Shown piece after piece: positions 16,932 through 39,607 of a stretch of DNA of 51,701 nt; position 1 is the first letter of the stretch; each line of letters opens with the position of its first letter. Made by a program: the position numbers and the translations under genes. Source of the stretch: Chitinophagaceae bacterium (GTDB taxonomy: Bacteria; Bacteroidota; Bacteroidia; Chitinophagales; Chitinophagaceae); assembly GCA_025449645.1 (NCBI GenBank), contig JANWIY010000125.1, positions 1 to 51,701 of the forward strand. The letters run 5' to 3'. The notes below the pieces were generated by a model. It ran no database searches. It was given only the letters and a program-made list of their open reading frames with translations, and was not told the DNA's origin.

Positions 16932-16997
16932 TTGACGGTTGACAGTTGACCGTTGACGGTGTTCAAACGTAAAAATCCGTCAACCGTCAACTGTCTA
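16932..16997. repeat. Heptad hairpin array d (deoxynucleoside kinase / pckA, convergent)
   Basis: The left arm is four 7-bp units of TTGACNG type (16932-16959). The right arm has three complementary units (16977-16997). The loop is 17 nt and matches the right-hand part of the loop in array l (TTCAAAC then A-rich), as if 11 nt were deleted. All units in this copy carry C at the variable position. Confidence 0.8.
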
Positions 16998-17026
16998 CCA
17001 ATTTGGTACTTACTTCCAAACCAAAA

Positions 17027-17052
17027 AAAAGCTCTTTTTGAAAAGAGCTTTT
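17027..17052. terminator. Bidirectional intrinsic terminator before pckA 3' end
   Basis: A 12-bp perfect stem (AAAAGCTCTTTT and its complement) with a 2-nt loop, T-rich on both strands, in the convergent region between the deoxynucleoside kinase and pckA. Confidence 0.8.
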
Positions 17053-17147
17053 AAGAGCAAACAATGTTAAAGGCCGTTAGATGAAATAGCAATGAGCTGA
17101 CAAGATGGTGAATTTATTTTTAATTTTACAGGTTTTCCCGATCTTTT

Positions 17148-18743: not shown

Positions 18744-18760
18744 ATTAATCGTTTAAGCCC

Positions 18761-18768
18761 CAAAACTA
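18761..18768 (-). promoter_or_regulatory. Bacteroidota -7 element upstream of pckA
   Basis: On the minus strand TAGTTTTG is a perfect TAnnTTTG box ending 17 bp before the pckA ATG. The -33 region is A-rich without a clear TTTG. Confidence 0.4.
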
Positions 18769-18947
18769 AAATTTAATCTTTTCTAAAAAAAGCCTTTTTT
18801 AAGAACCATAATTTAGAAAATATTCATAAAATAGAGGTTTTACTATATCTTACTCTAAATCCTGATCTTACAGAGTGCTTCTGCTTTGAAGTTTTCAGTT
18901 TTCTTTGTCCTGTTGCGGTCTCATCAATCCTCCCTACTTTTACATTG

Positions 18948-21330: not shown

Positions 21331-21466
21331 TAATTTGATAATTTGATAATTTGAAAATAGGGTATGCCGGAACCCTCGCGGAAAATTAACACAGCGGACT
21401 TAATTTTGTTTTCACCTCCCAGCTTTCATTCATTTTCAAATTTTCAAATGAGCACATTTTCAAATT
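21331..21466. repeat. Octad hairpin array e (purS/rsmI)
   Basis: Three perfect TAATTTGA units (21331-21354) start right after the purS stop. The right arm (21426-21466) is the inverse of AATTTGA and AAATGTGC type units and ends 4 bp before the rsmI ATG. The loop of about 70 bp is unrelated to the other copies. Confidence 0.75.
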
Positions 21467-21470
21467 CCCC

Positions 21471-22136
21471 ATGCTTTATCTCGTTCCTTCTCCCATAGGC
21501 AATCTGCAGGACATTAGCTTTCGGGCGCTGGAAACACTGAAAAAAGCAGACCTGATTCTGGCGGAGGATACCAGGACCTCGCTCAAGCTGCTGAACCATT
21601 ACCAGATCATCAGGCCACTCACCTCATTTCATCAGCACAATGAGCATAAAGTGCTTCGCCACCTGGTAGATCAGTTGCTTCAGGGAAAGACCATGGCATT
21701 ACTGACCGATGCCGGCACTCCAGGGATTTCTGATCCGGCTTATCTGCTCGTAAGGGAATGCATTCAGGTAAACATCCGCGTGGAATGCCTGCCCGGCGCA
21801 ACCGCATTCGTTCCTGCGCTTGTAAATAGCGGATTGCCTATGAACCGGTTTTGTTTTGAAGGATTTTTGCCTTTGAAAAAGGGCCGCCAGACCCTGCTGA
21901 AAAAACTTGCTGCTGAACAAAGAACCATGGTCTTCTATGAATCACCGCTCAGGCTTCTGAAAACCCTTCAGGAATTCATATTGTATTTTGGCCCGGAGAG
22001 AAAATGCTGTGTCAGCCGGGAACTCACTAAATTGTTTGAAGAAAATATCCGCGGTTCGCTGCAGGAAGTAGCGAATCACTTTATGGAAAAAGGAGTCAAA
22101 GGGGAAATTGTAATCGTTTTAGAAGGTACAGGATAA
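21471..22136 (+). CDS. rsmI: 16S rRNA (cytidine(1402)-2'-O)-methyltransferase
   Basis: A 221-residue SAM-dependent enzyme of the tetrapyrrole methylase fold that methylates the ribose of C1402 in 16S rRNA. Signatures: LYLVPSPIGNLQDISFRALETL at the N terminus, LILAEDTRTSLKLLNHY near 23-39, the SAM loop LTDAGTPGISDPAYLLVRE near 80-98, and FEGFLPLKKGRQTLLKKL near 123-140. It lacks the extra C-terminal domain of the E. coli protein, as expected for shorter family members. It runs with the M1 peptidase gene, 31 bp upstream of it. Confidence 0.95.
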   Translation: MLYLVPSPIGNLQDISFRALETLKKADLILAEDTRTSLKLLNHYQIIRPLTSFHQHNEHKVLRHLVDQLLQGKTMALLTDAGTPGISDPAYLLVRECIQVNIRVECLPGATAFVPALVNSGLPMNRFCFEGFLPLKKGRQTLLKKLAAEQRTMVFYESPLRLLKTLQEFILYFGPERKCCVSRELTKLFEENIRGSLQEVANHFMEKGVKGEIVIVLEGTG

Positions 22137-22167
22137 ACTTTTATTATTTATTATCATCTGCTGAATT

Positions 22168-24045
22168 ATGAAACACCCACATACCTTGTTTAATAGGATT
22201 TTTCAAACGGCCATCTGTTTGATCCTCGCCCAGGGCATTGTCAATTTTGTTTTTGCGCAGCCTGACCGCTGGCAGCAACGAGTAAAGTATTTCATGGACA
22301 TTGATGTGAATGTGATCAGCAACCGGTTTAAAGGAAAACAGCATCTCGAGTACAGCAATCATTCTCCGGATACCCTAAAAAGAGTTTTCTACCATTTATA
22401 CTGGAATGCATTTCAGCCGAACAGCATGATGGATAACCGGAGCCGCGTCCTCGGGCAGGTCATGATCGGCGGAAACCCCGACTGGGATGAACGCGTCCGT
22501 GACAGGATCCAGCATTTAAAACCGGATGAAGTCGGATATCAGAAAATACTATCCCTCAAGATGAATGGTGTTTCGCAAACGTTTAAAATAGAAGAAACCA
22601 TTCTCGAGGTAAATCTTACCACGCCCATTCTTCCCAACAGTACGGTTAGTTTGGATATGGAATTTGAAGCCCAGACACCCTTGCAAATCCGCAGGAGCGG
22701 TCGCGACAATCCCGAAACCCAGGTTCGGTATTCAATGAGCCAGTGGTATCCAAAGATCTGTGAATATGACTATGCGGGATGGCATGCAACGCCTTATGTG
22801 GCCAGGGAATTCTATGGTGTGTGGGGAGACTTTGATGTAAAAATCCATATTGATAAAACCTATATCCTGGGAGGAACCGGATATTTGCAAAACGCCAATC
22901 AGATCGGCTATGGATATGAATCGCCGGGCACGAAAGTTATACGGCCACCCGGTGATAAACTTACCTGGCATTTTTTTGCACCGAACGTGCACGATTTTGT
23001 TTGGGCCGCTGATCCGGGCTTTAAGCATGCAAGCAAAAAAATCCGCAGTGATCTGACGCTTCACGTGCTCTATAAAACAACGAATGCGCCGGAAAAAAAA
23101 TGGTTGAATATCCTGGATCAGGCTGCACGCGCGCTGCCTTTTATTGAAAAGACCTTTGGCCCCTATCCTTACAAACAATATTCTTTTATTCACGGTGGTG
23201 ACGGGGGAATGGAATATCCCATGGCAACACTTTTGGCTGATGGCAGCGGCTGGATGCACGAATTTATGCATAGCTGGTACCAGGGTATGCTGGGCACTAA
23301 TGAATTGAAATATCCCTGGATGGATGAGGGATTCACGCAATATGCGGCAGCGCGGATCTGGGGCCATTTAAATAACGACAGTTCCGCAGATCAGACCTAT
23401 AAACATGAATACGATGGGTATTTCTCCCTTGCCAAAAGTAATTTCCAGGAACCTTTGAGTACTTATGCAGATTTTTTCAGCACTAACCGGGGATACGAGC
23501 TTTCATCCTATTATAAGGGAACCGTATTTATGGTACAGTTGGGATATATTGTCGGCGATGAGGTGCTGGACAAAATCTTACTGGAATATTACCGGGAATG
23601 GAGATTCAAACATCCGAATGCGGATGATTTTATGCGCATTGCAGAAAAAGTCAGCGGCATGCAGCTGGATTGGTACAAGGATTTTTGGATCAACAGCACG
23701 AAGAGCATCGACTACGGGATCGATAGTTTATGGGAAGAAAATGGAAAAACGAAGATCCGTTTGCGTATGATCGGAAAGACACCCATGCCGATTGATGTGT
23801 TCCTGCAATTCAAAGACGGCAGCCGGGAGCTGGCTTATATTCCGCAATACCTCATGTTTGGCTTGAAACCCGAAGAAAATAAATTGATACCCCGGATCAC
23901 ATATGATCCCTGGAAATGGACGAGTCCCGATTATGAATTCGAAATCAATCACCGGCTCACGGATCTGAAAATAATAGAAATAGATCCATCCCACCGGATG
24001 GCGGATATTGACCGGGCAAATAACCGGCTGGAATTGAATTGGTAA
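22168..24045 (+). CDS. Secreted M1-family metallopeptidase (aminopeptidase N-like)
   Basis: A 625-residue gluzincin. Residues 1-30 form a signal peptide ending VFAQ. An N-terminal beta-domain is followed by the catalytic domain with a GGMEYPMATLL exopeptidase motif (GAMEN equivalent, near 347) and zinc site HEFMHSWY (HExxH, near 362) with the third ligand Glu in WMDEGFTQYAA about 18 residues later. M1 enzymes release N-terminal amino acids; in Bacteroidota many are periplasmic or surface peptidases. A second M1 protein of the same layout is encoded at 29534-31483, so this strain has at least two. No sorting domain is seen at the C terminus. Confidence 0.92.
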   Translation: MKHPHTLFNRIFQTAICLILAQGIVNFVFAQPDRWQQRVKYFMDIDVNVISNRFKGKQHLEYSNHSPDTLKRVFYHLYWNAFQPNSMMDNRSRVLGQVMIGGNPDWDERVRDRIQHLKPDEVGYQKILSLKMNGVSQTFKIEETILEVNLTTPILPNSTVSLDMEFEAQTPLQIRRSGRDNPETQVRYSMSQWYPKICEYDYAGWHATPYVAREFYGVWGDFDVKIHIDKTYILGGTGYLQNANQIGYGYESPGTKVIRPPGDKLTWHFFAPNVHDFVWAADPGFKHASKKIRSDLTLHVLYKTTNAPEKKWLNILDQAARALPFIEKTFGPYPYKQYSFIHGGDGGMEYPMATLLADGSGWMHEFMHSWYQGMLGTNELKYPWMDEGFTQYAAARIWGHLNNDSSADQTYKHEYDGYFSLAKSNFQEPLSTYADFFSTNRGYELSSYYKGTVFMVQLGYIVGDEVLDKILLEYYREWRFKHPNADDFMRIAEKVSGMQLDWYKDFWINSTKSIDYGIDSLWEENGKTKIRLRMIGKTPMPIDVFLQFKDGSRELAYIPQYLMFGLKPEENKLIPRITYDPWKWTSPDYEFEINHRLTDLKIIEIDPSHRMADIDRANNRLELNW

Positions 24046-24062
24046 TCACCGCGGACAAAAGC

Positions 24063-24725
24063 CTATCTTCTGAAATATTTATTGATGGCCTCTACCCGGT
24101 TGCCAACATGCAGTTTTTCATAGATGTGATAAACGTGCTTACGGACTGTTTCCTGACTGATATAAAGGTTGGCAGCAATCTCCTTATACAAAAGTCCGCG
24201 GGAAAGGTGCTGAAGGATTTCATTTTCCCGGCCCGATAAAGCTGGCAGGGGCCTTGTTTTTCCCGGAAAGGATCCGGCCCATAAGCTGCTACCGGAATCG
24301 GGGTATTGAAAAACCCGTACTACTCTTCTGGCAATCTGACTGCTCATAGGTGCGCCACCTTCCATAATTTGCCTAATGGCATCCAGCAAACATCCCGGAA
24401 GGGTCTTCTTGAGAATGTACCCGTTGGCCCCTGCATGCAGCGCTTCGAATATTTTTTCGTCATCCTCATATACGGTGCACATTAAAAATTGTATGCCGGG
24501 ATATTTTGGTTTGAGTTCACGAATGATATCCGTACCATTTTCCTCATTACCCAGATTGATATCCATCAATACGACCTGGGGTCTCAGGGCCGGGATCAGT
24601 ATCATTGCTTCCCGAAAACAACTGCAACTTCCTGCAAGTTCAAATCCATCTGCCTTCAGGATTATCAATTCCAGTACATTTCGTATTTCTGTGTTGTCAT
24701 CTACAATGCATACGGTGATGGACAT
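24063..24725 (-). CDS. NarL/FixJ-type response regulator
   Basis: A 220-residue two-component regulator. The receiver domain (4-120) has the acidic pair VDDNTE, the phosphorylated Asp in VVLMDINLG (near 55), the Thr in MCTVYEDDE and the Lys in LKKTLPG. A linker precedes a LuxR-type HTH (about 150-215) with LSGRENEILQHLSRG and EIAANLYISQETVRKHVYHIYEKL. It binds DNA as a dimer after phosphorylation. No histidine kinase is adjacent, so it is an orphan here. Its upstream region is filled by array f. Confidence 0.92.
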   Translation of the reverse strand: MSITVCIVDDNTEIRNVLELIILKADGFELAGSCSCFREAMILIPALRPQVVLMDINLGNEENGTDIIRELKPKYPGIQFLMCTVYEDDEKIFEALHAGANGYILKKTLPGCLLDAIRQIMEGGAPMSSQIARRVVRVFQYPDSGSSLWAGSFPGKTRPLPALSGRENEILQHLSRGLLYKEIAANLYISQETVRKHVYHIYEKLHVGNRVEAINKYFRR

Positions 24726-24756
24726 GGGTTTGAATTTGAAGTGCAGGATATTTTCG

Positions 24757-24842
24757 TTGACGGTTGACGGTTGATGGTTGACGGACTTTAAGTGCGAATT
24801 CGCACCAGATATCCGTCAACAATCAACTGTCAACCGTCAACC
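24757..24842. repeat. Heptad hairpin array f with 28-nt loop (response regulator / gntP, divergent)
   Basis: Four TTGAYGG-type units on the left (24757-24784) and four complementary units on the right (24813-24840). The loop is exactly 28 nt and contains the perfect palindrome GTGCGAATTCGCAC (24792-24805). The loop length and several bases are shared with arrays h, i and l. It occupies the divergent promoter region. Confidence 0.85.
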
Positions 24843-24913
24843 TTTCTCACGGAACGCTTAAATTTACCCTGGCTCCTGTAGGCCAACAAAGTATAATCAC
24901 CCTAAAGCACCCC

Positions 24914-26242
24914 ATGCATACCCTTTTCTTACCTGCACTGATCAGCTTATGCATAGGAATTCTGCTGATTGTTATTCTCACGACGAAATTCAGGGTCCAC
25001 GCATTTTTCGCTTTGATGATTTCATGTTTTGTAGTTGGTTTAGGCGTACAGCTACCTGCCGGGGAAATCATTGCATCCGTGAAAGATGGTTTTGGAAACA
25101 TCATGAAATCGATCGGACTGATTATTGTTTTCGGAACTACTCTGGGTGTGATACTGGAGCATACCGGCAGCACCCGGGTAATGGCTAATTATATATTAAA
25201 AAAGCTAGGGGAAAAACGAGCTCCTGTTGCCATGACCCTTACAGGATTGCTGGTGGGATTGCCTATATTTTGCGATTCCGGATATATCGTGTTAAGCGGT
25301 CTCAGCAATTCCCTCGCAAAGCGGACAGGCATGCCTGTTACCATACTGGCCATTTCTCTGGCCACCGGCTTATATGCCATTCACTGCCTGGTTCCTCCCC
25401 ATCCGGGTGCTGCTGGTGCTGCAGGAATTTTTGCTGTTGATTTCGGAAGATTGATTTTTTCCGGTGTACTGATTGCAATCCCTGCTGCGGTTGTCGGGCA
25501 TCTCTGGACCAGATATGCGGGTAAAAAAAACACGGATGTTTTAAAAAAGAATTCAGATGAAAAGGAAATTGCTGGTCCTTTACCCGGTGTGTTAAATGCC
25601 TTCCTGCCCGTGCTGGTGCCGATCCTGCTCATAGCAATCAAATCCTTTCTTACTATTGAAAATGCTGGAACAGGCTGGAGGTCAGTTTTCTTTTTACTGG
25701 GTGATCCGGAGCTCGCCCTGGCCATTGGGATACTGCTGGCATTAACAGCAAAGCGAACCTGGAAAAAAATAGAACTGGGCGCATTATTGCAGGATTCAGC
25801 AGAAAAAGCAGGTGGCATTCTCGTTATCATAGGCGCCGGCGGTGCTTTTGGTGCCGTATTGGCTGCAACACGTTTGGGCGAACAAATAAGTGTATCACTA
25901 CCTCTCGGGAGTCTGGGAATATTTTTTCCTTTTTTGCTGACCTTCATTCTGAAAACTGCCCAGGGATCTTCTACCGTTGCTATCATCACCGCGGCCTCAA
26001 TTGTTCATCCCCTGATACCTTCCCTCGGTCTTTCAAATACAAATGGCCCACTCCTATGCGTTTTATCCATGGGTGCGGGTTCCATGATGATCTCCCATGC
26101 CAACGATGCTTATTTCTGGGTCATCGCCAAATTTTCCGGCCTGGATATGAGGACCATGCTACGGGTTTATACGGTGTCTACTATACTTATGGGACTCACT
26201 TCCTTTGTAATGGTCTGGATTTTGTATTTGTTATTAAAATAG
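24914..26242 (+). CDS. GntP-family gluconate/organic acid:H+ symporter
   Basis: A 442-residue inner-membrane carrier with about twelve hydrophobic segments. Family features include GLPIFCDSGYIVLSGLSNSLAKRTG near 113, the HCLVPPHPGAAGAAG loop near 157-171, and the late TAQGSSTVAIITAASI stretch near 350-365, the substrate-site region in GntP/DsdX proteins. Substrate may be gluconate, another aldonate, D-serine or fructuronate; sequence does not decide. It stands alone, without gluconate kinase or a catabolic gene nearby. Confidence 0.9.
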   Translation: MHTLFLPALISLCIGILLIVILTTKFRVHAFFALMISCFVVGLGVQLPAGEIIASVKDGFGNIMKSIGLIIVFGTTLGVILEHTGSTRVMANYILKKLGEKRAPVAMTLTGLLVGLPIFCDSGYIVLSGLSNSLAKRTGMPVTILAISLATGLYAIHCLVPPHPGAAGAAGIFAVDFGRLIFSGVLIAIPAAVVGHLWTRYAGKKNTDVLKKNSDEKEIAGPLPGVLNAFLPVLVPILLIAIKSFLTIENAGTGWRSVFFLLGDPELALAIGILLALTAKRTWKKIELGALLQDSAEKAGGILVIIGAGGAFGAVLAATRLGEQISVSLPLGSLGIFFPFLLTFILKTAQGSSTVAIITAASIVHPLIPSLGLSNTNGPLLCVLSMGAGSMMISHANDAYFWVIAKFSGLDMRTMLRVYTVSTILMGLTSFVMVWILYLLLK

Positions 26243-26250
26243 GTAGTGAT

Positions 26251-26471
26251 TGATGGGTGATGAGTTATAGTTGATGGGTGATGAATTATGAATGATGAGT
26301 TATGGGTTTATGGATAATGGTGCACTATGGATGAAAGGAGAGGACTTCCGGTGCAAGCCGATGACTAATCCTTATTATCCATTATTTTAAAGAATTGGTG
26401 AACCAGCGGAGCTAAGCATAACTCATAATTCATAATTCAAAACTCATATGCACTCATAACTCCTAATTCAT
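26251..26471. repeat. Heptad array g, TGATGRR/TTATGRR type (gntP/rsmG, convergent)
   Basis: The left arm has about ten in-phase 7-bp units (TGATGGG, TGATGAG, TTATGAA, TTATGGG types, 26251-26320). The right arm has complementary CATAACT / CATAATT units (26417-26471) and covers the rsmG stop codon and its last codons. The loop of about 95 bp looks unrelated to the other copies. This is the longest array in the window. Confidence 0.75.
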
Positions 26472-27104
26472 CCGCACCTGCACAATATATTTTCCGCGGA
26501 ATGATTCTTCCGGGAGGAACTGATGGATCTCCCTGATTTTTGGCTTAGTTGCAGAATCCGCGATCTCGGCAGATAAATCGCCGCCTTTTAAACAGATCAG
26601 TCCGTTGGCATATGGCAATCCTGCTCCGGGTTCCTGCGGTTTTGTTTTAAGCAGCGGTTTAGACCATTTCCATAAATCTTTTAGTGGAGCGACTGCGCGG
26701 GAAACGGCCACATCAAATTTTCTTCCGGTGATTTCTTCTGCCCTGATCTGCTTTGTAGTCACATTTTTCAATCCCAGTGATTCCTTTACAGCCTCCACTA
26801 CCCTGAGTTTTTTGCCTATGCTATCAACCAGGTGAAATTGTACTTCGGGAAAATAAATGGCCAGCGGAATTCCCGGGAAGCCGCCGCCCGTCCCAATATC
26901 GATCACCTGGCTTCCGGCACGGAAATTAAAAACGGCCGCTATACTCAGCGAATGCAGCACGTGCTTATCATACAGGCTTCCAATATCCTTGCGTGAAATC
27001 ACATTTATTTGTGCATTCCAATGACCATAAAGTGCTTGCAGCGCAGCGAACTGTTCCAGTTGCAACTTTGTAAAGTCAGCAAAATAACGGGTGACTATCT
27101 CCAT
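26463..27104 (-). CDS. rsmG: 16S rRNA (guanine(527)-N7)-methyltransferase
   Basis: A 213-residue SAM-dependent methyltransferase modifying G527 of 16S rRNA. The SAM motif VIDIGTGGGFPGIPLAIYFP is typical of RsmG, preceded by WNAQINVISRKDIGSLYDKHVLHSL and followed by the SRAVAPL motif. The open frame extends upstream to 27179, but that lies inside the glycosyltransferase gene; the ATG at 27104 gives the normal N terminus and a 10-bp overlap with the glycosyltransferase stop. Loss of RsmG is known to give low-level streptomycin resistance. Its 3' end is inside array g. Confidence 0.94.
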   Translation of the reverse strand: MEIVTRYFADFTKLQLEQFAALQALYGHWNAQINVISRKDIGSLYDKHVLHSLSIAAVFNFRAGSQVIDIGTGGGFPGIPLAIYFPEVQFHLVDSIGKKLRVVEAVKESLGLKNVTTKQIRAEEITGRKFDVAVSRAVAPLKDLWKWSKPLLKTKPQEPGAGLPYANGLICLKGGDLSAEIADSATKPKIREIHQFLPEESFRGKYIVQVRMN

Positions 27105-28228: not shown

Positions 28229-28286
28229 TCAAGGCTACAGTTAGTTGGGGATGGTAAATTTATGTAATAATACGGTTTCCTTGCGG

Positions 28287-28377
28287 TTAATAGTTGATGG
28301 TTGATAGCTGATTGTTGATGGAATTTAGTGGAAAATTCCCGATCGAGATCCGTCAACCATCAACCATCAACCATAAC
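28287..28377. repeat. Heptad hairpin array h with 28-nt loop (glycosyltransferase / tgt, divergent)
   Basis: Five 7-bp TTGATGG-like units on the left (28287-28321), four on the right (28350-28377), and a loop of exactly 28 nt. The right arm ends about 17 bp before the tgt start, so it lies where the promoters of two divergent genes must be. Confidence 0.83.
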
Positions 28378-28393
28378 TTGCACCCTTTACAAT

Positions 28394-31483: not shown

Positions 31484-31594
31484 TTTCTTCTTTTATGCCG
31501 GCGAAGGTATATTTTTCAGGGTTTTTTCCCCTGATGATTGTGACAGGTGGTTTAGGATTTAACAGCCGGATTCAATTCCCAGACCGCATTGCAG

Positions 31595-31602
31595 TACTTT
31601 TG
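31595..31602 (+). promoter_or_regulatory. Bacteroidota -7 element upstream of lptG
   Basis: TACTTTTG is a perfect -7 box that ends 14 bp before the ATG. No clear TTTG lies at the -33 distance. Confidence 0.38.
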
Positions 31603-31616
31603 CAGCTGTTTGTAAC

Positions 31617-32708
31617 ATGAAAAAACTGGATTGGTATATACTGCGCAAATTCCTGAGCACATTTGTGTTTACGATACTCACGATCACGGTAATTGCCGTG
31701 GTGATAGACACCAGCGAGAAGGCCGATGATTTCGTGAAATCGGGCCTCAGCTCCTGGCAGATTGTCACCCATTATTTTATCGGTTTTGTTCCTTTTATCA
31801 TGGCCATGATCTTTCCGCTCATGGTTTTTATTGCCTGCATATATTTCAGCTCCAAAATGGCAGGGCAGTCCGAGTTCATTGCAATTCTGGCCGGGGGTAT
31901 CCGGTATCCCAGGATGCTCAGGCCTTATATTGTCGGAGCGGTGCTGCTCGGAGTGATATATTGGTACGCCAGCCAGTTCTGGGTTCCAAAAGCTGAAGAG
32001 ATAAGGACCAACTTTCAGGCTACTTATATTGACCGGAACAGCTCCTATAACGGAGATCCATACCGCACCAATAATTTTTATCTGCGGGTGAATTCCTATA
32101 CATATGTCGGTCTGAAATACTACGATACCGCACGCAAATCCGCAAGTAATTTTTTTCTCTTTAAGGTTAAGGACAACAAGATCTATTATAACCTCCGTGC
32201 GGAATTTGTGAAATGGGATACGGCTAAAAAAGAATGGCAGCTTACAGGCTGCGTGGAGCATACAAACGATGGATTGAAAGAAACCGCCCGCCTCATTCCC
32301 AAAATGTTTATCAACCTGAATGTTCGTCCTGAGGAAATGAGAAGGGATGAATACCTCAAAGACAAATTGACGACCCCGGAGTTAAAACGTTTCATTAAAA
32401 TGGAGGAAGTGCGGGGGAGTGAAGGGCTCAATACGTATAAGGAGGAAAGATATCACCGTGATGCTTCTCCTTTTTCCGTGATCATTCTAACGGTGATCGG
32501 CGCGGTGATTGCAACGCGTAAAGTGAGGGGAGGAAGCGGATTGCACCTCGCTATCGGACTGGTCATGGCCGCCGTTTTTGTGATCATGGACAAGTTCTCC
32601 GTGACCTTTGCAACAAAAGGAAATTTTTCTCCCATGCTTGCTGCCTGGGTGCCCAATATTATTTTTGCAGTCCTTGCTGTTTGGCTTTATTGGCGTGCGC
32701 CGAAGTAG
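31617..32708 (+). CDS. lptG: LptF/LptG family LPS export permease
   Basis: A 363-residue inner-membrane protein with six helices: an N-terminal set (about 12-32, 52-85, 98-120), a large periplasmic beta-jellyroll domain (about 125-275), and a C-terminal set (about 280-360). The N-terminal LDWYILRKFLSTFVFTI and the FPLMVFIACIYFSSKMAGQSEFIAILAGGI segment are typical of YjgP/YjgQ proteins. LptF and LptG with the LptB ATPase extract lipopolysaccharide from the inner membrane. I prefer LptG-like over LptF, with moderate confidence; only one such gene is here. Its TAG stop is immediately followed by array i. Confidence 0.88.
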   Translation: MKKLDWYILRKFLSTFVFTILTITVIAVVIDTSEKADDFVKSGLSSWQIVTHYFIGFVPFIMAMIFPLMVFIACIYFSSKMAGQSEFIAILAGGIRYPRMLRPYIVGAVLLGVIYWYASQFWVPKAEEIRTNFQATYIDRNSSYNGDPYRTNNFYLRVNSYTYVGLKYYDTARKSASNFFLFKVKDNKIYYNLRAEFVKWDTAKKEWQLTGCVEHTNDGLKETARLIPKMFINLNVRPEEMRRDEYLKDKLTTPELKRFIKMEEVRGSEGLNTYKEERYHRDASPFSVIILTVIGAVIATRKVRGGSGLHLAIGLVMAAVFVIMDKFSVTFATKGNFSPMLAAWVPNIIFAVLAVWLYWRAPK

Positions 32709-32709
32709 G

Positions 32710-32795
32710 TTGACCGTTGATAGTTGATTGTGTATGGACTTTATTTGGAAATCCGAACCTGATATCCATCAACCATCAACTATTAACCATCAACC
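32710..32795. repeat. Heptad hairpin array i with 28-nt loop (lptG/citrate synthase)
   Basis: Four 7-bp TTGATNG-like units (32710-32737) begin one base after the lptG stop. The right arm is four complementary units (32766-32793). The loop is exactly 28 nt and closely resembles the loop of array f, sharing ACTTTA at the left end and GATAT at the right. Confidence 0.85.
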
Positions 32796-32829
32796 TGTAC
32801 CCTGCTCTCCAAACTTTACCATCCATTCT

Positions 32830-32861
32830 TTTGTTCTAACAGCATTCATGAATTAACTTTA
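32830..32861 (+). promoter_or_regulatory. Citrate synthase promoter
   Basis: TTTG, 20 bp, then TAACTTTA: a full -33 box and a -7 box with one mismatch to TAnnTTTG. It is the best two-box promoter in the window. The -7 box ends 34 bp before the chosen ATG. Confidence 0.5.
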
Positions 32862-32895
32862 GCCATCTTATCCCGGAAAAATTTAATTGCCTGGT

Positions 32896-34218
32896 ATGAC
32901 CATCAAAGAAAAGTTTAAAATCAAGGCCGAGGGCCTCAGTGCAGAAATTAAGGATATCCTCAAAGAGCACGGATCAAAGAAAATCGGAGACACAACCCTT
33001 TCCCAGATCTATGCCGGCATGCGGGGAATGACCGGGCTGGTTACAGAAACCTCTTTACTGGATGCACAGGAAGGCATCCGGTTCCGCGGATATTCCATTC
33101 CCGAAATCCAGCAAAAACTTCCGAAAGCATCGGGCGGCAGCGAACCCCTGCCGGAAGGTTTGTTTTTCCTGATGCTGATAGGAGAGCTTCCGGACGAAAA
33201 AGATGTTCAGGAACTAACGGCCAATTGGCAACGCCGCAGTCATGTTCCAAATCATGTATTTGATGCTATCGAGGCCCTGCCGGTGGGGACCCATCCCATG
33301 ACACAATTTGTGATTGCCATTATGGCGCTTCAAACGGAAAGCCAGTTTGCAAAAAAATACGCAGAGGGCCTCAATAAAAAAGATTATTGGGATGCCATAT
33401 TCGATGATTCCATGAATCTGATTGCCCGGCTTCCGCGGGTTGCCGCCTATATCTATCGCAGAAAATATAAGCACGGCGACCATATTCAGCCTAACGGGTT
33501 ACTCGACTGGGCCGGGAATTTCGCCCACATGTTGGGATACCGCGACGATACTTTTCAGGAGCTGATGCGTTTGTATATGACCATACACGCAGATCATGAA
33601 GGAGGAAACGTCAGTGCACACACCACCCACCTGGTTGGTTCAGCGCTGAGTGATCCATACCTCTGCCTCGCCGCCGGCATGAATGGCCTCGCTGGCCCTT
33701 TGCACGGCCTTGCCAACCAGGAAGTGATCAAATGGATCCTGGAGATGCGCGATGAGCTGAAGACCGAACTGCCCAGCAAGGAGCAGATCGTGGAATATGT
33801 ACAGAAAACATTAAATGAAGGGAAAGTGGTTCCGGGTTACGGGCACGCTGTGCTTCGCAAGACCGATCCCCGCTTCGCGGCCCAGATGGAATTCGGGAAA
33901 AAACATCTGCCGGATGATCCGCTCGTAAAAACGGTCTGGAATATTTATGAGGCGGTCCCGCCCGTATTGCAGTCACTGGGGAAAATTAAAAACCCCTGGC
34001 CCAATGTGGATGCGCACAGCGGAGCACTCCTGGTTCATTTCGGACTTGTGGAATATGAATTTTACACCGTTCTTTTCGGAGTCAGCCGTTCCCTTGGTGT
34101 GCTCGCAAGCCTTTGCTGGGACAGGGCCCTGGGCTACCCGCTGGAAAGACCCAAGTCCGTCACCACAGATTCCGTCAAAGGCTGGATTGAAGGGAAGGCC
34201 GATATTTGGGGGGACTGA
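32896..34218 (+). CDS. gltA: Citrate synthase (mitochondrial type)
   Basis: A 440-residue enzyme joining acetyl-CoA and oxaloacetate. It is of the long eukaryotic-like type rather than the hexameric Gram-negative type. Catalytic residues are evident: His in HADHEGGNVSAHTTHLVGS (near 230), His in GYGHAVLRKTDPRF (near 316) and Asp in NVDAHSGALL (near 370). A frame open from a TTG three codons upstream exists; the ATG giving MTIKEKFKIKAEG is more likely. It is a single gene with its own promoter, and a hairpin array follows its stop by about ten bases. Confidence 0.95.
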   Translation: MTIKEKFKIKAEGLSAEIKDILKEHGSKKIGDTTLSQIYAGMRGMTGLVTETSLLDAQEGIRFRGYSIPEIQQKLPKASGGSEPLPEGLFFLMLIGELPDEKDVQELTANWQRRSHVPNHVFDAIEALPVGTHPMTQFVIAIMALQTESQFAKKYAEGLNKKDYWDAIFDDSMNLIARLPRVAAYIYRRKYKHGDHIQPNGLLDWAGNFAHMLGYRDDTFQELMRLYMTIHADHEGGNVSAHTTHLVGSALSDPYLCLAAGMNGLAGPLHGLANQEVIKWILEMRDELKTELPSKEQIVEYVQKTLNEGKVVPGYGHAVLRKTDPRFAAQMEFGKKHLPDDPLVKTVWNIYEAVPPVLQSLGKIKNPWPNVDAHSGALLVHFGLVEYEFYTVLFGVSRSLGVLASLCWDRALGYPLERPKSVTTDSVKGWIEGKADIWGD

Positions 34219-34228
34219 GGGAATGTGG

Positions 34229-34416
34229 TAATTTGAAAATGTGCTAATTTGAAAATCTTCTAATGTGAGAATGAGCAAGAAAAAACTGAAACAGTACAAA
34301 AAGAGAAATCCATTATTTGGAAAGATTTATTTGACTCAGCCATTTTTTACATAAGCTCATTTTCCCCCCTGCATTTTCACATGAGCACATTTTCAAATTG
34401 GCACATTAACCCATTA
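34229..34416. repeat. Octad hairpin array j (citrate synthase / metZ, convergent)
   Basis: Left arm: six 8-bp units alternating TAATTTGA-like and AAATGTGC-like (34229-34276), in effect a 16-bp period. Right arm: six inverse units (34369-34416), the outermost carrying the metZ TAA stop. The loop is about 90 bp. Confidence 0.8.
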
Positions 34417-35580
34417 GCCCTCCATTGCCTGCAATATATCTGCGAGAATATCCTCCCTGTGTTCCAGTCCCACGGAAATGCGTATAAGCCCGGGCGTTAT
34501 ATTTACTTCCATTCTTTCCTGTTCACTTAATTTTCCGTGCGTTGTGCTTGCCGGATGAGAGGCGATGCTGCGTGTGTCTCCAAGGTTGGCTGTACGGGAA
34601 ATCATTTTCAGGCTGTCGAGAAATTTTCTTCCGCTTTCCAGCCCTCCTTTTAATTCAAAACACAAAAGGCCACCGCCATTTTGCATTTGCTTTTTAGCTA
34701 TGGCGTATTGTGGATGGGTTGTCAGAACAGGATACTTAAGCCAGCTGATGGCCTTGTTATGCTCGAGCTGCTGAGCCAGATAATAGGCATTGGACGCGTG
34801 GCGCTCCATACGCACTTCCAGTGTTTCCAGACTTCTGCTGAGTACCCAGGCGTTAAAAGGGGAAAGGGCGGGACCTGTACTTCGGCAGAATAGGTAAATA
34901 TCATGGATGAGTTTTTTGTTTCCCAGCACGATGCCGCCCAGTACACGACCCTGGCCGTCAAGCCATTTTGTTGCAGAATGGATCACCAGATCGGCTCCGA
35001 ACCGGCCGGGACCCTGACCGATCGGCGTGGCAAAACAATTGTCCACGCAAAAGATCAGGTTATGCTTTTTTGCGAGTCTTCCAGCCGCCTCCAGATCAAT
35101 GATGTCCAATCCCGGATTGGTTGGAGTTTCTACAAAAATCATTTTCGTATTGGGCCGGATGGCATTTTCCCAACCCCTCATGTCCTCTGCAGATACATAA
35201 CTGTGTTCGATTCCGTATCCGGGCAGAATTTTCGTGATCACACTGTGCGTGCTTCCGAAAACGGCCCTGCAGGACAAGAGATGATCTCCCTGCTTTAAAA
35301 AAGTCAGAAAAGAGGCAAATACCGCACTCATCCCCGAGGCGCTGGCAAATCCGGCTTCCATTTCTTCCAGAACGCACATCCGGTCAGTGAATTCCTGAAC
35401 GCTGGGATTGGAAAAACGACTGTAAATATTATCGTCATTCTCGTCTGCAAATGCGGCGCGCATTTCTTCTGCATTGTCAAAACAAAAACTGCTGGTGAGA
35501 AATAAAGGAGATGAATGCTCCATTTCTTCCGTTTGCTTTACCCTGGTTCTGATCATTTGGGTAATAGGATGTACATGCAT
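34414..35580 (-). CDS. metZ: O-acylhomoserine sulfhydrylase (MetZ-type, PLP-dependent)
   Basis: A 388-residue PLP enzyme of the cystathionine gamma-synthase family. YSRFSNPSVQEF near residue 50, the PLP aspartate region NLIFCVDNCFATPIGQGPG near 180, and the Schiff-base lysine in HSATKWLDGQGRVLGG near 207 are present; SATKYLDGQGR-type sequences are usual in O-succinyl/acetylhomoserine sulfhydrylases. With metX divergent at 36259 it probably makes homocysteine directly from acylhomoserine and sulfide. A methionine gamma-lyase or cystathionine enzyme is a less likely alternative. The open frame extends to 35763 but would overlap the OsmC gene; MHVHPITQ at 35580 is the natural start. Confidence 0.86.
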   Translation of the reverse strand: MHVHPITQMIRTRVKQTEEMEHSSPLFLTSSFCFDNAEEMRAAFADENDDNIYSRFSNPSVQEFTDRMCVLEEMEAGFASASGMSAVFASFLTFLKQGDHLLSCRAVFGSTHSVITKILPGYGIEHSYVSAEDMRGWENAIRPNTKMIFVETPTNPGLDIIDLEAAGRLAKKHNLIFCVDNCFATPIGQGPGRFGADLVIHSATKWLDGQGRVLGGIVLGNKKLIHDIYLFCRSTGPALSPFNAWVLSRSLETLEVRMERHASNAYYLAQQLEHNKAISWLKYPVLTTHPQYAIAKKQMQNGGGLLCFELKGGLESGRKFLDSLKMISRTANLGDTRSIASHPASTTHGKLSEQERMEVNITPGLIRISVGLEHREDILADILQAMEG

Positions 35581-35671
35581 GCTTAGGTTTTTTGTAAATG
35601 ATTTTATTTGGCTGCCGGGTATTGCAGCTGGTGATCGACCAGGCCGCATCCCGAAGGGGAAAGAGGGTATT

Positions 35672-36094
35672 TCAGGAAATGATCTTCGTTTCCCAATGAA
35701 TCTTGCAGCCTGCCCCCATGAGGGTTGCCGATACGGAACAATATTTATCAATGGAGAGGGCACAGGCCCTCTTCGCCTTTTCGGGATCTATTGATCCTTT
35801 CAACTCAAAAACAATGTGGATTTTCTTCCATAAGGAAGGATGTTTTCCCGGTTCTCTTTCACCGTCAATGTTCATCCTGAATCCTTCAACTACCTGTTTT
35901 TGCTTTTTAAGAATGGAAACGATGTCAATTCCGCTGCAGGCACCCAGGCCCATGAGCAGCATCTGCATCGGACGGATTCCGTATTCATGGCCGCCGCTTT
36001 CCAAACTGGAATCCATCCTGACCCGATGACCGTAAGCATCGGTTCCTTCAAAGCCGAAATCATTGCTTGTGCGGATTACCTCAACATGGGCCAT
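35672..36094 (-). CDS. OsmC family protein
   Basis: A 140-residue OsmC/Ohr-fold protein. Both redox cysteines of the family are present, in GLGACSGIDIVSIL (near 53) and IDKYCSVSATL (near 119). Members reduce organic hydroperoxides or have unknown thiol chemistry; this one is closer to OsmC/YhfA than to Ohr (inference from the GACSGIDI form). It precedes metZ by 91 bp on the same strand and is divergent from metX. The -7 box at 36109-36116 could drive it and perhaps metZ. Confidence 0.88.
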   Translation of the reverse strand: MAHVEVIRTSNDFGFEGTDAYGHRVRMDSSLESGGHEYGIRPMQMLLMGLGACSGIDIVSILKKQKQVVEGFRMNIDGEREPGKHPSLWKKIHIVFELKGSIDPEKAKRACALSIDKYCSVSATLMGAGCKIHWETKIIS

Positions 36095-36108
36095 AAAATA
36101 AATTTTTC

Positions 36109-36116
36109 CAAAGGTA
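36109..36116 (-). promoter_or_regulatory. Bacteroidota -7 element upstream of the OsmC gene
   Basis: On the minus strand TACCTTTG is a perfect -7 box, 14 bp before the OsmC ATG. The -33 box is not evident. Confidence 0.4.
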
Positions 36117-36258
36117 ATTCATCCGGGTGCATTTTTTTTGTTTGCCATACATCGCCGGCCAGGGCCCAACGTATTATGGTTTTCTGCCATAAAAAGAAAT
36201 TTCGTGTCAGGATTCATGCATGTCCTTATTTTGCATCCTAAATTTTCTAGCCGGACGC

Positions 36259-37272
36259 ATGGATGAATTTCATATTGATCAATCCTTTAAACTGGAAAAT
36301 GGCGGAACGCTGCCTGGCATAAAGATCGCGTATCACACGTATGGCCATTTGAATGATGCGGCCGATAATGCAGTCTGGATCTGCCATGCCCTCACAGCCA
36401 ATTCAAATGTAACGAGATGGTGGCCCGGCATGGTGGGGGAGAACCATTTTATAAATCCCAAAACCCATTTCATCGTTTGCGCCAATATTCTCGGCTCCTG
36501 TTATGGCACTTCAGGCCCGCTGAGCCAGGATCCGGATTCGGGTGATATTTACTTCAGCCGTTTTCCGCTCATCACTATCAGGGACATGGTGAACGCCCAT
36601 ATCCTGCTGCGGAAGCATTTGGGTATCCGGCAGATCGCACTGATGATGGGAGGAAGCATGGGCGGTTACCAGGCGTTGGAATGGTGCGTAATGGAACCGG
36701 AAATGATCAGGGATCTTTTTCTGATCGCCACATCTGCTGCTGAGACCGCCTGGGGCGTCGCAGTGCACACTGCCCAGCGGCTTGCGATTGAGGCTGATCC
36801 TTCCTGGAAAGACTTGAATGAGGATGCGGGAGCTGCGGGATTAAAAGCAGCAAGAGCCGTTGGCATCCTTACCTACAGGAACTATACCATCATGAAGGAA
36901 AAGCAATCTGAAGGCGATCAGGAAAAGCTGGACGATTTCAGGGCATCGTCTTATATTAATTACCAGGGCGACAAACTGGTTCAGCGTTTCAATGCTTATA
37001 GTTACTGGCTGCTCACCAAGGCGATGGACACCCATAATTTATCGCGGGGCCGCGGCGGGGACCTTAAAAAAGTATTATCTGCAATCCGGCAGCGAACCCT
37101 GATTATCGGTATCACCAGCGATATCCTTTGTCCCCTTGATGAACAAAAGTTCATCGCCGACTACATACCCGATTGCCGGTTAGTCACGATCGACTCCATA
37201 TACGGTCACGATGGTTTTATGGTGGAATCTGAGAAAGTAGGAAATAGTTTGCTGAGGTGGTTGAGGAAGTAA
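36259..37272 (+). CDS. metX: Homoserine O-acetyltransferase (MetX)
   Basis: A 337-residue alpha/beta-hydrolase that acylates homoserine for methionine synthesis. The N-terminal FKLENGGTLPGIKIAYHTYG, the NILGSCYGTSGP oxyanion region, the nucleophile elbow GGSMGGYQALEW (near 132), the late Asp in GITSDILCPLDEQ and His in YGHDGFMVE complete the triad. Acetyl versus succinyl specificity needs the residues discussed for the MetX family and was not resolved. The frame extends 13 codons upstream, but MDEFHIDQSF is the usual form. No SAM riboswitch was recognised upstream. The stop lies at the edge of array k. Confidence 0.92.
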   Translation: MDEFHIDQSFKLENGGTLPGIKIAYHTYGHLNDAADNAVWICHALTANSNVTRWWPGMVGENHFINPKTHFIVCANILGSCYGTSGPLSQDPDSGDIYFSRFPLITIRDMVNAHILLRKHLGIRQIALMMGGSMGGYQALEWCVMEPEMIRDLFLIATSAAETAWGVAVHTAQRLAIEADPSWKDLNEDAGAAGLKAARAVGILTYRNYTIMKEKQSEGDQEKLDDFRASSYINYQGDKLVQRFNAYSYWLLTKAMDTHNLSRGRGGDLKKVLSAIRQRTLIIGITSDILCPLDEQKFIADYIPDCRLVTIDSIYGHDGFMVESEKVGNSLLRWLRK

Positions 37273-37361
37273 ATTAAAAATTAAAAAGTAAAAAATGGTA
37301 CCTGATTGGGAGTCTAAGTAAAAATTAAGGCTCCAATTTTTACTTTTTACTTTTCAACCTT
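37271..37361. repeat. AT-rich heptad hairpin array k (metX / tolC, convergent)
   Basis: Left units AAATTAA, AAATTAA, AAAGTAA (37271-37291) overlap the metX TAA stop. The right arm (about 37334-37358) has the inverse of AAAAGT-type units and ends 3 bp from the TolC stop. Confidence 0.75.
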
Positions 37362-38801
37362 TTACCAAGTTAGTCTCCCCTGATAATAATCCAAAATTTT
37401 CGTTCTGAAAATATAATTATAGCGTGCGGCTGAAAGGTTGATATTGGCGCGGTCGACATTATTTTTGGCGATCACATAAACGTCTGAGGTGATAACGCCG
37501 TTATTAAAACGAACTTCGGCTGCCTTAAAGGATTGACTATAGGCGTTTACCTGATCCGTATAGCCTTTGTATTGTCCGTATGCCGCAATCATATTCTGCC
37601 AGGCCTGCTCAACCATTTGCTGCAACTGATTACGGGATGCGGTGGCCATAATGCGGGCATTCACCAGATTTATTTTTGCCTGTTTAATATTATTTCTTGT
37701 AGTGAGATAATTTAAAATCGGAATATTCAATTGAAGGCCGATGGATTCATAACGATTATTCTTGAACTGGTCCGCAAAAGAAATCTTCTGCGAAAGTGCG
37801 CCCTGGGTATTGACGAAATAATCCGTACCGTTATAAGTAATATAATCAGAAGTCTGCACCGGGAAGGCGGATCCCGGGATCGTACTCGTGGCGATGCTGG
37901 AATAATTTGAGTTGATGCTGGCGCCAAAATAAAGTGAGGGATACAACTTGCCCCTGGCTGCAGCAACGCCTTTTTCAAAAGACCTCACCCGGAGGTCGAC
38001 TGCTTTAATATTCGGAATAACATGTAATGCAGTTTGAAAAATGCTATCGGAACTGCCCCCGTATTGCAAGGTATTAGCATCCATGGGAACCATTTCGTAG
38101 GTCGCGTCCTTATCATATGGAATATTAAGTAAGTTAAAGAGGCTAACCTTTGAAATCTCGAGCGCATTCACCGCATTGACGATGTTCACCAGGTCACTTG
38201 CATACTGGCCCTGGAGGTCGGTTAAAGTATAAGGAGCGATAGCGCCTGCACGGTTTTGTATCTCCAGACGATCAACCTGCACCGAATCCACAGCGGCCTG
38301 CTGTCTGGCAATATCAAGCTGATCCCTATTGCTCAGTACCAACAGGTAACCCGTTATTACAAGTAGTGTGATATTATCCTTTTGCTGTTGCAAATCCATT
38401 TTGCTGGCATCAAAACTCAATGAATTCGCCCTGATCGCCTGCTGCAAGGTCAGACCATTGAATAAAAGTAAGCTGGCATTCAACCCGTAGTTGCCGGATC
38501 CGTTTTTCTCATCTACATATCCGTTGTTGCTGCTATTGATACTTCTGCCGTAGTTCAGTCCCTCACTCAGCGTGCCGTTAATCGCCGGCAGGAGATTGTC
38601 CTTCGCCTGCTTGAACTGAACGCCGTTCGTTTGCATTTGAATTTCACTTTGCTTCACCTGTAGGTTATTCTTTATGGCTATGTCAATGCACTGCTTAAGA
38701 TTGAGGCTTTGCGCACCGGTATTCTGACCAAATCCGGCCAAATGAGAAACCAGGGCCGCAAGAAATATACAAATACGAAACCGCTTCATTGTTATCATCA
38801 T
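37362..38801 (-). CDS. TolC-family outer membrane channel
   Basis: A 479-residue protein with a signal peptide (MKRFRICIFLAALVSHLAGFG) and two repeats of the outer membrane efflux protein domain, with long helices alternating with short beta segments. LNLKQCIDIAIKNNLQVKQSEIQ is the usual start of the first repeat. It would form the outer-membrane end of a tripartite exporter with the HlyD-like adaptor and MacB-type ATPases upstream. It starts directly after the stop of the ATPase gene; an internal ATG four codons on (38789) is the alternative start. Last gene of the exporter operon. Confidence 0.92.
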   Translation of the reverse strand: MMITMKRFRICIFLAALVSHLAGFGQNTGAQSLNLKQCIDIAIKNNLQVKQSEIQMQTNGVQFKQAKDNLLPAINGTLSEGLNYGRSINSSNNGYVDEKNGSGNYGLNASLLLFNGLTLQQAIRANSLSFDASKMDLQQQKDNITLLVITGYLLVLSNRDQLDIARQQAAVDSVQVDRLEIQNRAGAIAPYTLTDLQGQYASDLVNIVNAVNALEISKVSLFNLLNIPYDKDATYEMVPMDANTLQYGGSSDSIFQTALHVIPNIKAVDLRVRSFEKGVAAARGKLYPSLYFGASINSNYSSIATSTIPGSAFPVQTSDYITYNGTDYFVNTQGALSQKISFADQFKNNRYESIGLQLNIPILNYLTTRNNIKQAKINLVNARIMATASRNQLQQMVEQAWQNMIAAYGQYKGYTDQVNAYSQSFKAAEVRFNNGVITSDVYVIAKNNVDRANINLSAARYNYIFRTKILDYYQGRLTW

Positions 38802-39479
38802 TTATTTTGTCTCCGTTTTTTCAATGCGCCCGTCCAGCAGATGGATGATCCGCTTTCCGTAGCTGGCATTTTTTTCAGAATGAGTTACCTGAATGATAGT
38901 TACGCCGTCCTGCTTATTGAGCGTAGTGAATAATTCCATAATTTCTTCTCCCTGCTTGGAGTTAAGATTTCCCGTGGGTTCGTCGGCCAGGATCAGTTTG
39001 GGCTTGGCCACCAGGGCGCGGGCAATACCTACCAACTGCTGTTGTCCGCCAGACAACTGTGTAGGGAACAAATCTTTTTTTCCCACCATCTGAAACCGGT
39101 CGATGATATCCGCCACGATGGCCTTGCGTTCAGAATTTTTGATGTTCTGATAAATAAGTGGTGTTTCAATATTTTCGTACACCGTAAGTTCATCGATCAG
39201 GTGATATGCCTGAAAAACAAATCCAATATGCGTCTTGTAAAGATTGGACCTTTGTTTTTCTTTTAGCTTATATACATCGCTGTCCATGAACTGGTAATCG
39301 CCTTCCGAAGGAGAATCCAGCATCCCGATAATATTTAGCAAGGTTGATTTCCCTGAGCCCGAAGGCCCCATGACAGAAATGAATTCCCCTTCCGCGATAT
39401 TCAGATTGATATCCTTCAGAATAAAATTCCGGATATTCCCAAGGTTAATCCATTTGGATATATGTTCGATCTTGATCAT
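38802..39479 (-). CDS. ABC exporter ATP-binding protein (MacB type), copy 2
   Basis: A 225-residue ATPase: Walker [10 protein letters not shown] near 37, Q-loop FVFQAYHLIDELTVYENI near 88, signature LSGGQQQLVGIARAL near 142 (QLV where QRV is usual), Walker [14 protein letters not shown] (Asn instead of Asp after GNL), H-loop VTHSE. The GNLNS and QLV changes near the catalytic site may mean reduced or altered ATPase activity, since its paralogue at 40400 keeps the consensus. It lies between the shortened permease (upstream, separated by array l) and tolC. Confidence 0.9.
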   Translation of the reverse strand: MIKIEHISKWINLGNIRNFILKDINLNIAEGEFISVMGPSGSGKSTLLNIIGMLDSPSEGDYQFMDSDVYKLKEKQRSNLYKTHIGFVFQAYHLIDELTVYENIETPLIYQNIKNSERKAIVADIIDRFQMVGKKDLFPTQLSGGQQQLVGIARALVAKPKLILADEPTGNLNSKQGEEIMELFTTLNKQDGVTIIQVTHSEKNASYGKRIIHLLDGRIEKTETK

Positions 39480-39511
39480 ACTTAATTATTATGTTATGTT
39501 ATATTCATTGG

Positions 39512-39592
39512 TTGATAGTTGATAGTTGATGGAAATCAGGTGCGAATTCAAACATAAAATCCATCAACCATCAACTATCAACCATCAACCAA
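39512..39592. repeat. Heptad hairpin array l with 28-nt loop (inside the exporter operon)
   Basis: Three TTGATRG units (39512-39532) and a degenerate fourth on the left, four complementary units on the right (39561-39588), and a loop of exactly 28 nt containing GTGCGAATTC as in array f. It separates the shortened permease from the downstream ATPase and could attenuate expression of ATPase and tolC. Confidence 0.85.
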
Positions 39593-39607
39593 CTTACTTC
39601 CTTCCAT

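Follow-up and report, generated by a model that had tools for sequence, protein, structure and literature searches.

Heptad hairpins of the window and their anatomy

The window, a 51,701-nt stretch on contig JANWIY010000125.1 of a Chitinophagaceae bacterium, carries a set of hairpins whose arms are tandem repeats of the heptad TTGAYGG, facing CCRTCAA across a short loop. Four of them, elements f, h, i and l (Table 1), had been predicted to be copies of one dispersed element with a loop of exactly 28 nt. All four were found where predicted, give or take an outer unit or a few bases, and all have 28-nt loops, which for element i holds only if the degenerate inner unit TGTATGG is counted as arm (the gap is otherwise 35 nt). 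Within the window, 39 matches to TTGAYGGTTGAYGG with up to two mismatches stand against 1.66 expected, a count reached in 0 of 100 shuffles. An inverted-repeat scan (arm of at least 18, identity of at least 0.82) returned 12 hairpins, of which five belong to the TTGAYGG family and seven to other tandem-repeat families, and missed element i because its arms are degenerate; each of 20 dinucleotide shuffles of the window gave 0 or 1 long hairpins. Rfam had no match across the window at gathering score.

Copies abound in the rest of the genome (G000; 3.59 Mb, 190 contigs, 86% complete), which contains 207 exact matches to TTGAYGGTTGAYGG and none to the reversed control. A model, R1, was built from 25 copies and kept sequence-only, since RNAalifold predicted no pairs on the first alignment; it scored up to 150 candidates per genome. 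In G000, where 150 of 2242 candidates were scored, all 150 match, which corresponds to about 85 distinct places (counted by eye) because most match on both strands. Together with the window, 60 stretches around these places gave a sample of 901,083 bases. Stretches of G000 and of two further carriers, G242 and G250 (99% and 80% complete), were mostly picked for bearing elements, which inflates densities and shared fractions; no such choice was made for the window and for L166-L168, the syntenic stretches of G242. Counts of covariation and of orthologs leave out stretches L296-L311.

Inverted heptad pairs with gaps of up to 45 nt number 98 in G000 (71 before degenerate inner units were recognised), and the gap is exactly 28 nt in 78 of them, in 49 of 65 pairs in G242 and in 25 of 27 in G250. 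Such a length-conserved spacer between inverted conserved ends is also a feature of REPINs, the doublets of repetitive extragenic palindromic (REP) sequences. Four units are the commonest arm (89 of 176, 71 of 112 and 32 of 50 arms in the three carriers, at gaps of 26-30 nt). The outward flank base next to four-unit arms is C in 96% of 192 flanks, the following base in only 43%, which delimits the full unit as G(TTGAYGG)4-28 nt-(CCRTCAA)4C, an 86-bp near-palindrome with four 7-nt repeats per side. It thus has the precise terminal inverted repeats of a miniature inverted-repeat transposable element (MITE). The ends read GTTGAYGG...CCRTCAAC. Of the two tags, GTAG and CGTC, that mark an end of REP sequences, CGTC is present inside units of the C-type flavour (as opposed to the T-type), not as a terminal tag.

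The 152 loops of 28 nt from the three species, oriented by an iterative matrix (77 were flipped), have the consensus ACTTTAGTTGCGAATTCGCACCTGATAT, to which copies are on average 0.766 identical (random pairs, 0.649). Loop columns earlier called invariant are so in the four window loops; across the 152 copies they are conserved but not invariant (A1 82%, T4 94%, A6 68%, G10 76%, A13 76%, A14 93%, T15 84%, C17 89%, A25 82%, A27 66%, T28 88%), within a range of 37% to 94% over all columns. The small palindrome noted at the loop centre is only part of a near-palindrome that extends over the whole loop; its halves differ (ACTTTA.. versus ATATCAGG..), and the loop therefore has a direction. By eye, the 17-nt loop of array d (TGTTCAAACGTAAAAAT) does resemble the right part of that of l (TTCAAACRTAAAA), as proposed, but the likeness is weak, with no R1 match at E values up to 1. 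A minority form of the heptad hairpin has a 4-nt loop, ACGC, ATGT, AGGT or ACGT (L300:7-31, L302:3425-3456, L306:4964-5002 and L113:4711-4770); these are perhaps deletion derivatives.

Table 1. Hairpins of the window with their positions
Feature	Positions	Remarks
Element f, full G(TTGAYGG)4-28-nt loop ACTTTAAGTGCGAATTCGCACCAGATAT-(CCRTCAA)4 C	24756..24841	R1 55.3 bits; divergent intergenic region; orthologous copy in G242
Element h, outer units degenerate, strict arms 28294-28370, loop AATTTAGTGGAAAATTCCCGATCGAGAT	28287..28377	R1 36.8 bits
Element i, loop ACTTTATTTGGAAATCCGAACCTGATAT, 2 nt past stop codon of open reading frame (ORF) 31617-32708	32710..32794	R1 40.4 bits
Element l, loop AAATCAGGTGCGAATTCAAACATAAAAT, reversed relative to f	39508..39592	R1 54.7 bits, minus strand
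Array d, heptad hairpin, 17-nt loop	16932..16999	Possible element derivative
Heptad hairpin, 78-nt interior	15038..15178	28-nt form at orthologous sites G242 L166:6685 and G250 L267:1808
AAAAAKT-heptad hairpin, overlaps a gene's stop	11153..11240	Inverted-repeat scan
AATGTGNN octad hairpin, spans 78-nt convergent region	13240..13328	Inverted-repeat scan
AATGTGNN octad hairpin	21332..21466	Inverted-repeat scan
GTTATGR heptad hairpin	26282..26439	Inverted-repeat scan
AATGTGNN octad hairpin, 16-nt super-repeat, spans convergent region	34222..34407	Inverted-repeat scan
AAAAAKT hairpin, spans convergent region	37277..37354	Inverted-repeat scan
AAAAAKT hairpin	48024..48093	Inverted-repeat scan

Three carrier species and their shared sites

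The element was found in 3 of 33 genus members, which are three related uncultured species. The strict pattern TTGAYGG-N28-CCRTCAA has 33 matches in G000, 24 in G250 and 12 in G242, one in each of five other genus members and none in 25. Among 244 drawn family genomes it has the same counts in G000 and G242 and one match in each of 14 others, with loops that read as unrelated; among 395 drawn phylum genomes (including G000 and one other genus member), G000 was the only one found with a hairpin of two T-type heptads in each arm. Six stretches (92,005 bases) of the element-free congeners G035, G127 and G194 hold no inverted heptad pair. The central claim of the original prediction, that these are copies of one dispersed element, is thus borne out: 152 copies in three species share a fixed gap and a loop consensus, the other 30 genus members have 0 or 1 strict-pattern matches with unrelated loops, and neither random loops nor a confinement of the copies to the window was found.

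Heptads without the element occur in three other genus members, G248, G254 and G255 (31, 55 and 23 heptad triplets), in which inverted pairs are only at the level of the reversed control and R1 has no match except at one place in G255. To judge from these sequences, TTGAYGG arrays, mostly one-sided there, may predate the element. Heptad hairpins with unrelated loops were also seen on six contigs (L193, L201, L205, L208, L210 and L316), five labelled as cyanobacteria, Alphaproteobacteria, Planctomycetota or Verrucomicrobia and one as viral; R1 mainly matched their arms, with one weak fuller match on L201, and these hairpins may reflect convergence or mis-binning. A loop-pattern search of viral contigs and a search of plasmids with element f returned nothing. 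With a role as uptake sequence in mind, heptads outside arrays were counted as well: TTGATGG is enriched (195; rank 7 of 140 7-mers of the same composition, median 82.5), but no enrichment was seen for TTGACGG (98; rank 123 of 420).

Orthologous borders were mapped, as the original prediction had proposed, and shared, extra and missing copies were found. Contig C35 of G242 is syntenic with window positions 21567-41493 (main pieces 72-82% identical) and has a counterpart of each of f, h, i and l at the same border, plus two further copies near window positions 29540 and 40390. The border of h is occupied in G250 too, with a 17-nt gap; element i corresponds to a 28-nt loop in G250 and a 63-nt loop in G242; and l, T-type here, is C-type in G242. 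Downstream of array d lies an ordinary terminator-like hairpin (17027-17052), which G242 has retained without array d. By their flanks, 40 G000 elements could be assigned to sites in G242 stretches, 26 of them with a detected element, and 20 to sites in G250 stretches, 17 with one (fractions raised by the way the stretches were chosen). Among the remaining orthologous sites are empty and reduced ones, one of the latter being TTGATGG-TATA-CCATCAA (L279).

At shared sites, the heptad flavour can switch as a whole set. Flavour is species-biased (C-type in 32 of 49 copies in G242, T-type in 61 of 78 in G000 and 21 of 25 in G250), while loop identity hardly depends on it (17.97 of 28 for T-T, 18.74 for C-C and 18.22 for T-C pairs), and replacement of the whole element is therefore not favoured as the cause of the switching. 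Orthologous 28-nt loops run in the same and in opposite directions in 10 and 5 G000-G250 pairs, 13 and 9 G000-G242 pairs and 3 and 3 G242-G250 pairs. Once oriented, orthologous loops are 0.743 identical between G000 and G250 (random pairs, 0.662), 0.774 between G242 and G250 (0.669) and 0.631 between G000 and G242 (0.640). As a rough estimate, neutral decay after a spread close to that split could account for the last figure. The loop need not be under strong selection, and the uneven column conservation leaves room for some selection.

With genes called by our own dicodon script, the elements lie in intergenic regions, mostly 3-22 nt past stop codons. The median distance to the neighbouring stop codon is 10, 7 and 7 nt in the three carriers and that to the neighbouring start 64, 45 and 77 nt; none was placed deep in a gene by this caller, and 10 of 88, 7 of 56 and 4 of 25 elements overlap a called start region. 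Among intergenic regions of at least 20 nt in G000, 75 of 523 are convergent and 117 divergent, compared with 28 and 7 of 72 placed elements; in all, seven, six and two elements of the three carriers sit in divergent regions.

Matching arms, an inverted interior and the mode of dispersal

The two arms of a copy change together. Over the three inner units of 108 copies, 18.67 of 21 positions form Watson-Crick pairs within a copy, compared with 16.57 (standard deviation 0.16) after shuffling; the observed value was reached in 0 of 5000 shuffles. A common flavour explains part of this signal and the remainder is position-specific: non-canonical units are identical to their mirror unit in 52 of 170 cases, compared with 6.4% in other copies and with 6 of 91, 13 of 142, 18 of 142 and 6 of 86 (7-13%) at offsets of -2, -1, +1 and +2, which is the homogenisation at mirror positions expected of template switching. 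The original prediction, which held independent slippage unable to produce the common loop length and bases, is right for the loop; the arms, however, do evolve within each copy. The loop halves do not covary (7.51 of 14, shuffled 7.59, standard deviation 0.08; 152 copies), and the loop as a selected stem was rejected on this ground. The 3213 arm pairs contain 73 T.G, 89 A.C and 172 other mispairs and thus no wobble excess.

A second line of evidence comes from contigs C52 (at its end, L078) and C83 (at its start, L085). The two have identical flanks, 81 nt on the left and 88 nt on the right, around a 135-nt element whose 79-nt interior agrees at 72 of 79 positions after inversion and at 34 in the forward direction; the arms are mirror-perfect in C83 (28 of 28) and nearly so in C52 (25 of 28). 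From the assembled sequences, this looks like two alleles of one locus with an inverted interior. Arm homogenisation and spacer inversion are the two products described for template switching between inverted repeats (PMC8604942; PMC8794818). Covariation of the arms but not of the loop halves and the inverted interior both fit template switching during replication.

We therefore favour, with a probability of about 0.6, the reading that all copies belong to a single non-autonomous, dispersed palindromic element with template-switched arms, which spread in ancestors of the three sister species. The data agree with copies that spread before these species separated, after which the loop drifted while the arms were repeatedly copied onto each other. 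The element would act like a REPIN or a MITE in anatomy and place, and its position near stop codons would be where insertion harms least. A replicating DNA polymerase would switch template between the two arms and copy one onto the other, so that the arms stay complementary while the heptad flavour changes; the same switching would sometimes flip the loop, and slippage within an arm would spread one heptad variant along it.

Several observations weigh against this reading. The C52/C83 inversion is a single case, on assembled contigs, and the overlapping contigs C80 and C130 differ at 7 scattered positions in 245 nt with no inversion. Orthologous loops in opposite orientation resemble random pairs between G000 and G250 (5 pairs, P 0.31) and between G000 and G242 (9 pairs, P 0.59), and support inversion only between G242 and G250 (3 pairs, P 0.016). 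Arm conservation is inflated by a detector that demands good arms, and mirror covariation could also arise from selection on a paired structure. Finally, no dispersing enzyme was found (PF01797 was the one transposase family tested by profile), nor an autonomous parent among arrays 90-4000 nt apart in 61 G000 stretches that make up about a quarter of the genome.

Selection on a paired structure is the core of a rival explanation, in which the hairpins serve at the 3' ends of genes as bidirectional terminators or mRNA stabilisers, are maintained by selection at the RNA level, and owe their mirror covariation to compensatory evolution. The short distances to stop codons speak for it, as do strong predicted folds (-27 to -64 kcal/mol in 12 copies) and the stem-loops that cluster at gene 3' ends in many bacteria, as described in PMC1590033. 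Furthermore, a long hairpin is present in 32 of 57, 26 of 44 and 8 of 16 convergent regions of 60-600 nt (in stretches chosen for elements) and in far fewer divergent ones (13 of 100, 12 of 75 and 2 of 31). However, RNA-level selection through wobble pairs left no signal (38 G.U versus 28 A.C in mRNA sense at tandem genes), and the T tract that should follow an intrinsic terminator is not a clear feature (at least 5 T in 6 in 24 of 192 outward flanks). Moreover, array d adjoins the terminator-like hairpin that G242 has without it, such a hairpin is absent from 67 of 99 convergent regions in the G000 stretches, and some elements sit in divergent regions, as counted above. We regard this explanation as unlikely.

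How the copies were dispersed is a question of its own. In REPINs, likewise, a spacer of constant length separates two conserved ends in inverted orientation; they are extragenic and numerous, and, in the accounts of PMC3116915 and PMC3733652, also occur as single ends and show compensatory changes. Their ends, as described there, are a 16-mer with a GTAG tag; our element has tandem heptads as ends, a spacer conserved in sequence and carriers without the REP-associated tyrosine transposase (RAYT). PF01797 (Y1_Tnp, RAYT) has 0 matches in G000, G242 and G250 and 23 of the 30 other genus members match; it also has 0 in the heptad-rich G248, G254 and G255, and 23 of the remaining 27 match. By a hand calculation, a random draw would give this pattern about 2 times in 10,000, but the genomes are related and some of them incomplete. 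Despite the hairpin doublet, the fixed spacer and the compensatory changes shared with REPINs (PMC3116915), dispersal by a RAYT is therefore very improbable, although G000 and G250 are only 86% and 80% complete. That the element is REP- or MITE-like and mobilised in trans, as originally suggested, agrees with its anatomy and niche but, for the RAYT, not with the absence of PF01797 from all three carriers.

Mobilisation in trans by the transposase of a DDE-type transposon, of which the element would be a MITE, is a better but still somewhat doubtful possibility. It would account for the inverted ends, the sharp borders, the many copies and their presence or absence at orthologous borders. On the other hand, direct matches of 2-7 nt across the ends of 68 full copies (7, 3, 3, 1, 0 and 0) are near the inverted control (6 and 3 for 2 and 3 nt), so that there is no consistent target duplication (at least 3 nt in 3 of 68), although the three 4-nt matches may exceed chance and old copies could have lost a duplication. 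In addition, the arrays 90-4000 nt apart include no autonomous copy, in a survey that did not search for DDE families. Dense array clusters were considered as a source and rejected; in the ORFs of L106 and L074 we recognise ordinary genes (names by our own reading, except PheS). The cluster L074:16154-16477 is a 16-heptad array followed by three nested four-heptad blocks, and the ORF that follows, at 16510, reads in translation as a NADH dehydrogenase subunit. Independent slippage at each place, or an assembly artefact, is hardly credible. Array lengths vary, other gaps occur and the carriers are metagenome bins or fragmented assemblies, but the same 28-nt gap and consensus recur at orthologous borders in three separately assembled genomes, and shuffling the window does not approach its number of long hairpins; the cross-species data refute this explanation.

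In sum, the multi-copy element is real and REPIN- or MITE-like in anatomy, without the RAYT and the target duplication needed for membership in either class. It was not recognised in the open-access literature searched. The BrickBuilt MITE of Porphyromonas gingivalis, as described in PMC4596501, is also from the Bacteroidota, intergenic and built of tandem repeats within a small inverted-repeat element, but its 23-nt units form a direct array that has short inverted ends, whereas in our element the inverted arms consist of the tandem arrays. Heptamer direct repeats (TAACTGA) of Beggiatoaceae, cyanobacteria and some Bacteroidetes share the 7-nt units and the mostly intergenic place, and their one-sided arrays are like the in-gene blocks described below; in PMC4679880 they are direct and near start codons, with one inverted case reported and no common loop. 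Template switching between short inverted repeats shares with our element the arms made identical, the inverted spacer and several compensatory changes per event; the cases in PMC8604942 and PMC8794818 are inversions of spacers 2-5 bp long, in genes of yeast and in RNA genes, in contrast to interiors of 28-79 nt in a dispersed bacterial family.

Other tandem-repeat hairpins and the wider reading

The seven other hairpins of the window (Table 1) lie mostly at gene 3' ends. Inverted repeats with arms of at least 20 and an identity of at least 0.85 number 107, 87 and 44 in the stretches of G000, G242 and G250, and only 19, 9 and 3 of them lack a tandem period in the arm; nearly all others have a period of 7, 8 or a multiple. 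Under looser limits, and with families named by short motif rules of our own making, G000 has 83 TTGAYGG, 18 AATGTGNN, 12 AAAAAKT, 5 GTTATGR and 15 unassigned hairpins, G242 has 60 TTGAYGG, 25 AATGTGNN, 6 TGGACAA and 13 unassigned, and G250 has 31 TTGAYGG, 10 AATGTGNN, 5 GTTATGR, 3 AAAAAKT and 2 unassigned. The median distance to a stop codon is -1 to 9.5 nt for the named families except GTTATGR in G000 (31 nt). Stretches of three outgroups hold no such hairpins, including 0 of 15 convergent regions. Loop lengths vary in the AATGTGNN and AAAAAKT hairpins, which makes the constant length of 28 nt a peculiarity of the TTGAYGG family.

One-sided blocks of three or four heptads do occur deep within genes: 13 blocks (7 in G000, 5 in G242 and 1 in G250) in 10 called genes. 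All 13 have CCRTCAA on the sense strand, which is the direction without stops (giving peptides such as PSTINHQ), and all are unpaired; likewise, 0 of 344 paired arms lie deep in a gene. A methionine-synthase-like gene has two four-heptad blocks (L069:8219-8281) within an 18-residue insertion relative to a solved structure. In pheS, a four-heptad block in the stop-free direction is present in G000 (L106:4752-4779) and G242 (L182:3669-3696) and falls in a variable linker with no net insertion.

A wider, tentative reading is that hairpins are made irrespective of the unit. Tandem blocks of 7- or 8-mers might become inverted pairs at gene 3' ends and then be matched and flipped by template switching; the products would be four or five unrelated families (TTGAYGG, AAAAAKT, AATGTGNN, GTTATGR and TGGACAA), of which the element with the 28-nt loop would be the one also dispersed. 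On this tentative reading, the source blocks might be those still one-sided in sister species and inside genes.

Returning to the reading that we favour, a dispersed palindromic element with template-switched arms, the family is a strong natural candidate for the template-switch evolution of inverted repeats. If this is right, about a hundred sister loci in three genomes would be a natural record of template switching, with corrected arms, flipped interiors and freely drifting loops, and sequence alone would show by what rules arms are copied and spacers inverted. The family would also make a general question testable, since compensatory changes in a hairpin do not have to reflect a selected RNA structure. 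It would also be a dispersed palindromic family without a RAYT, the usual explanation for such families.

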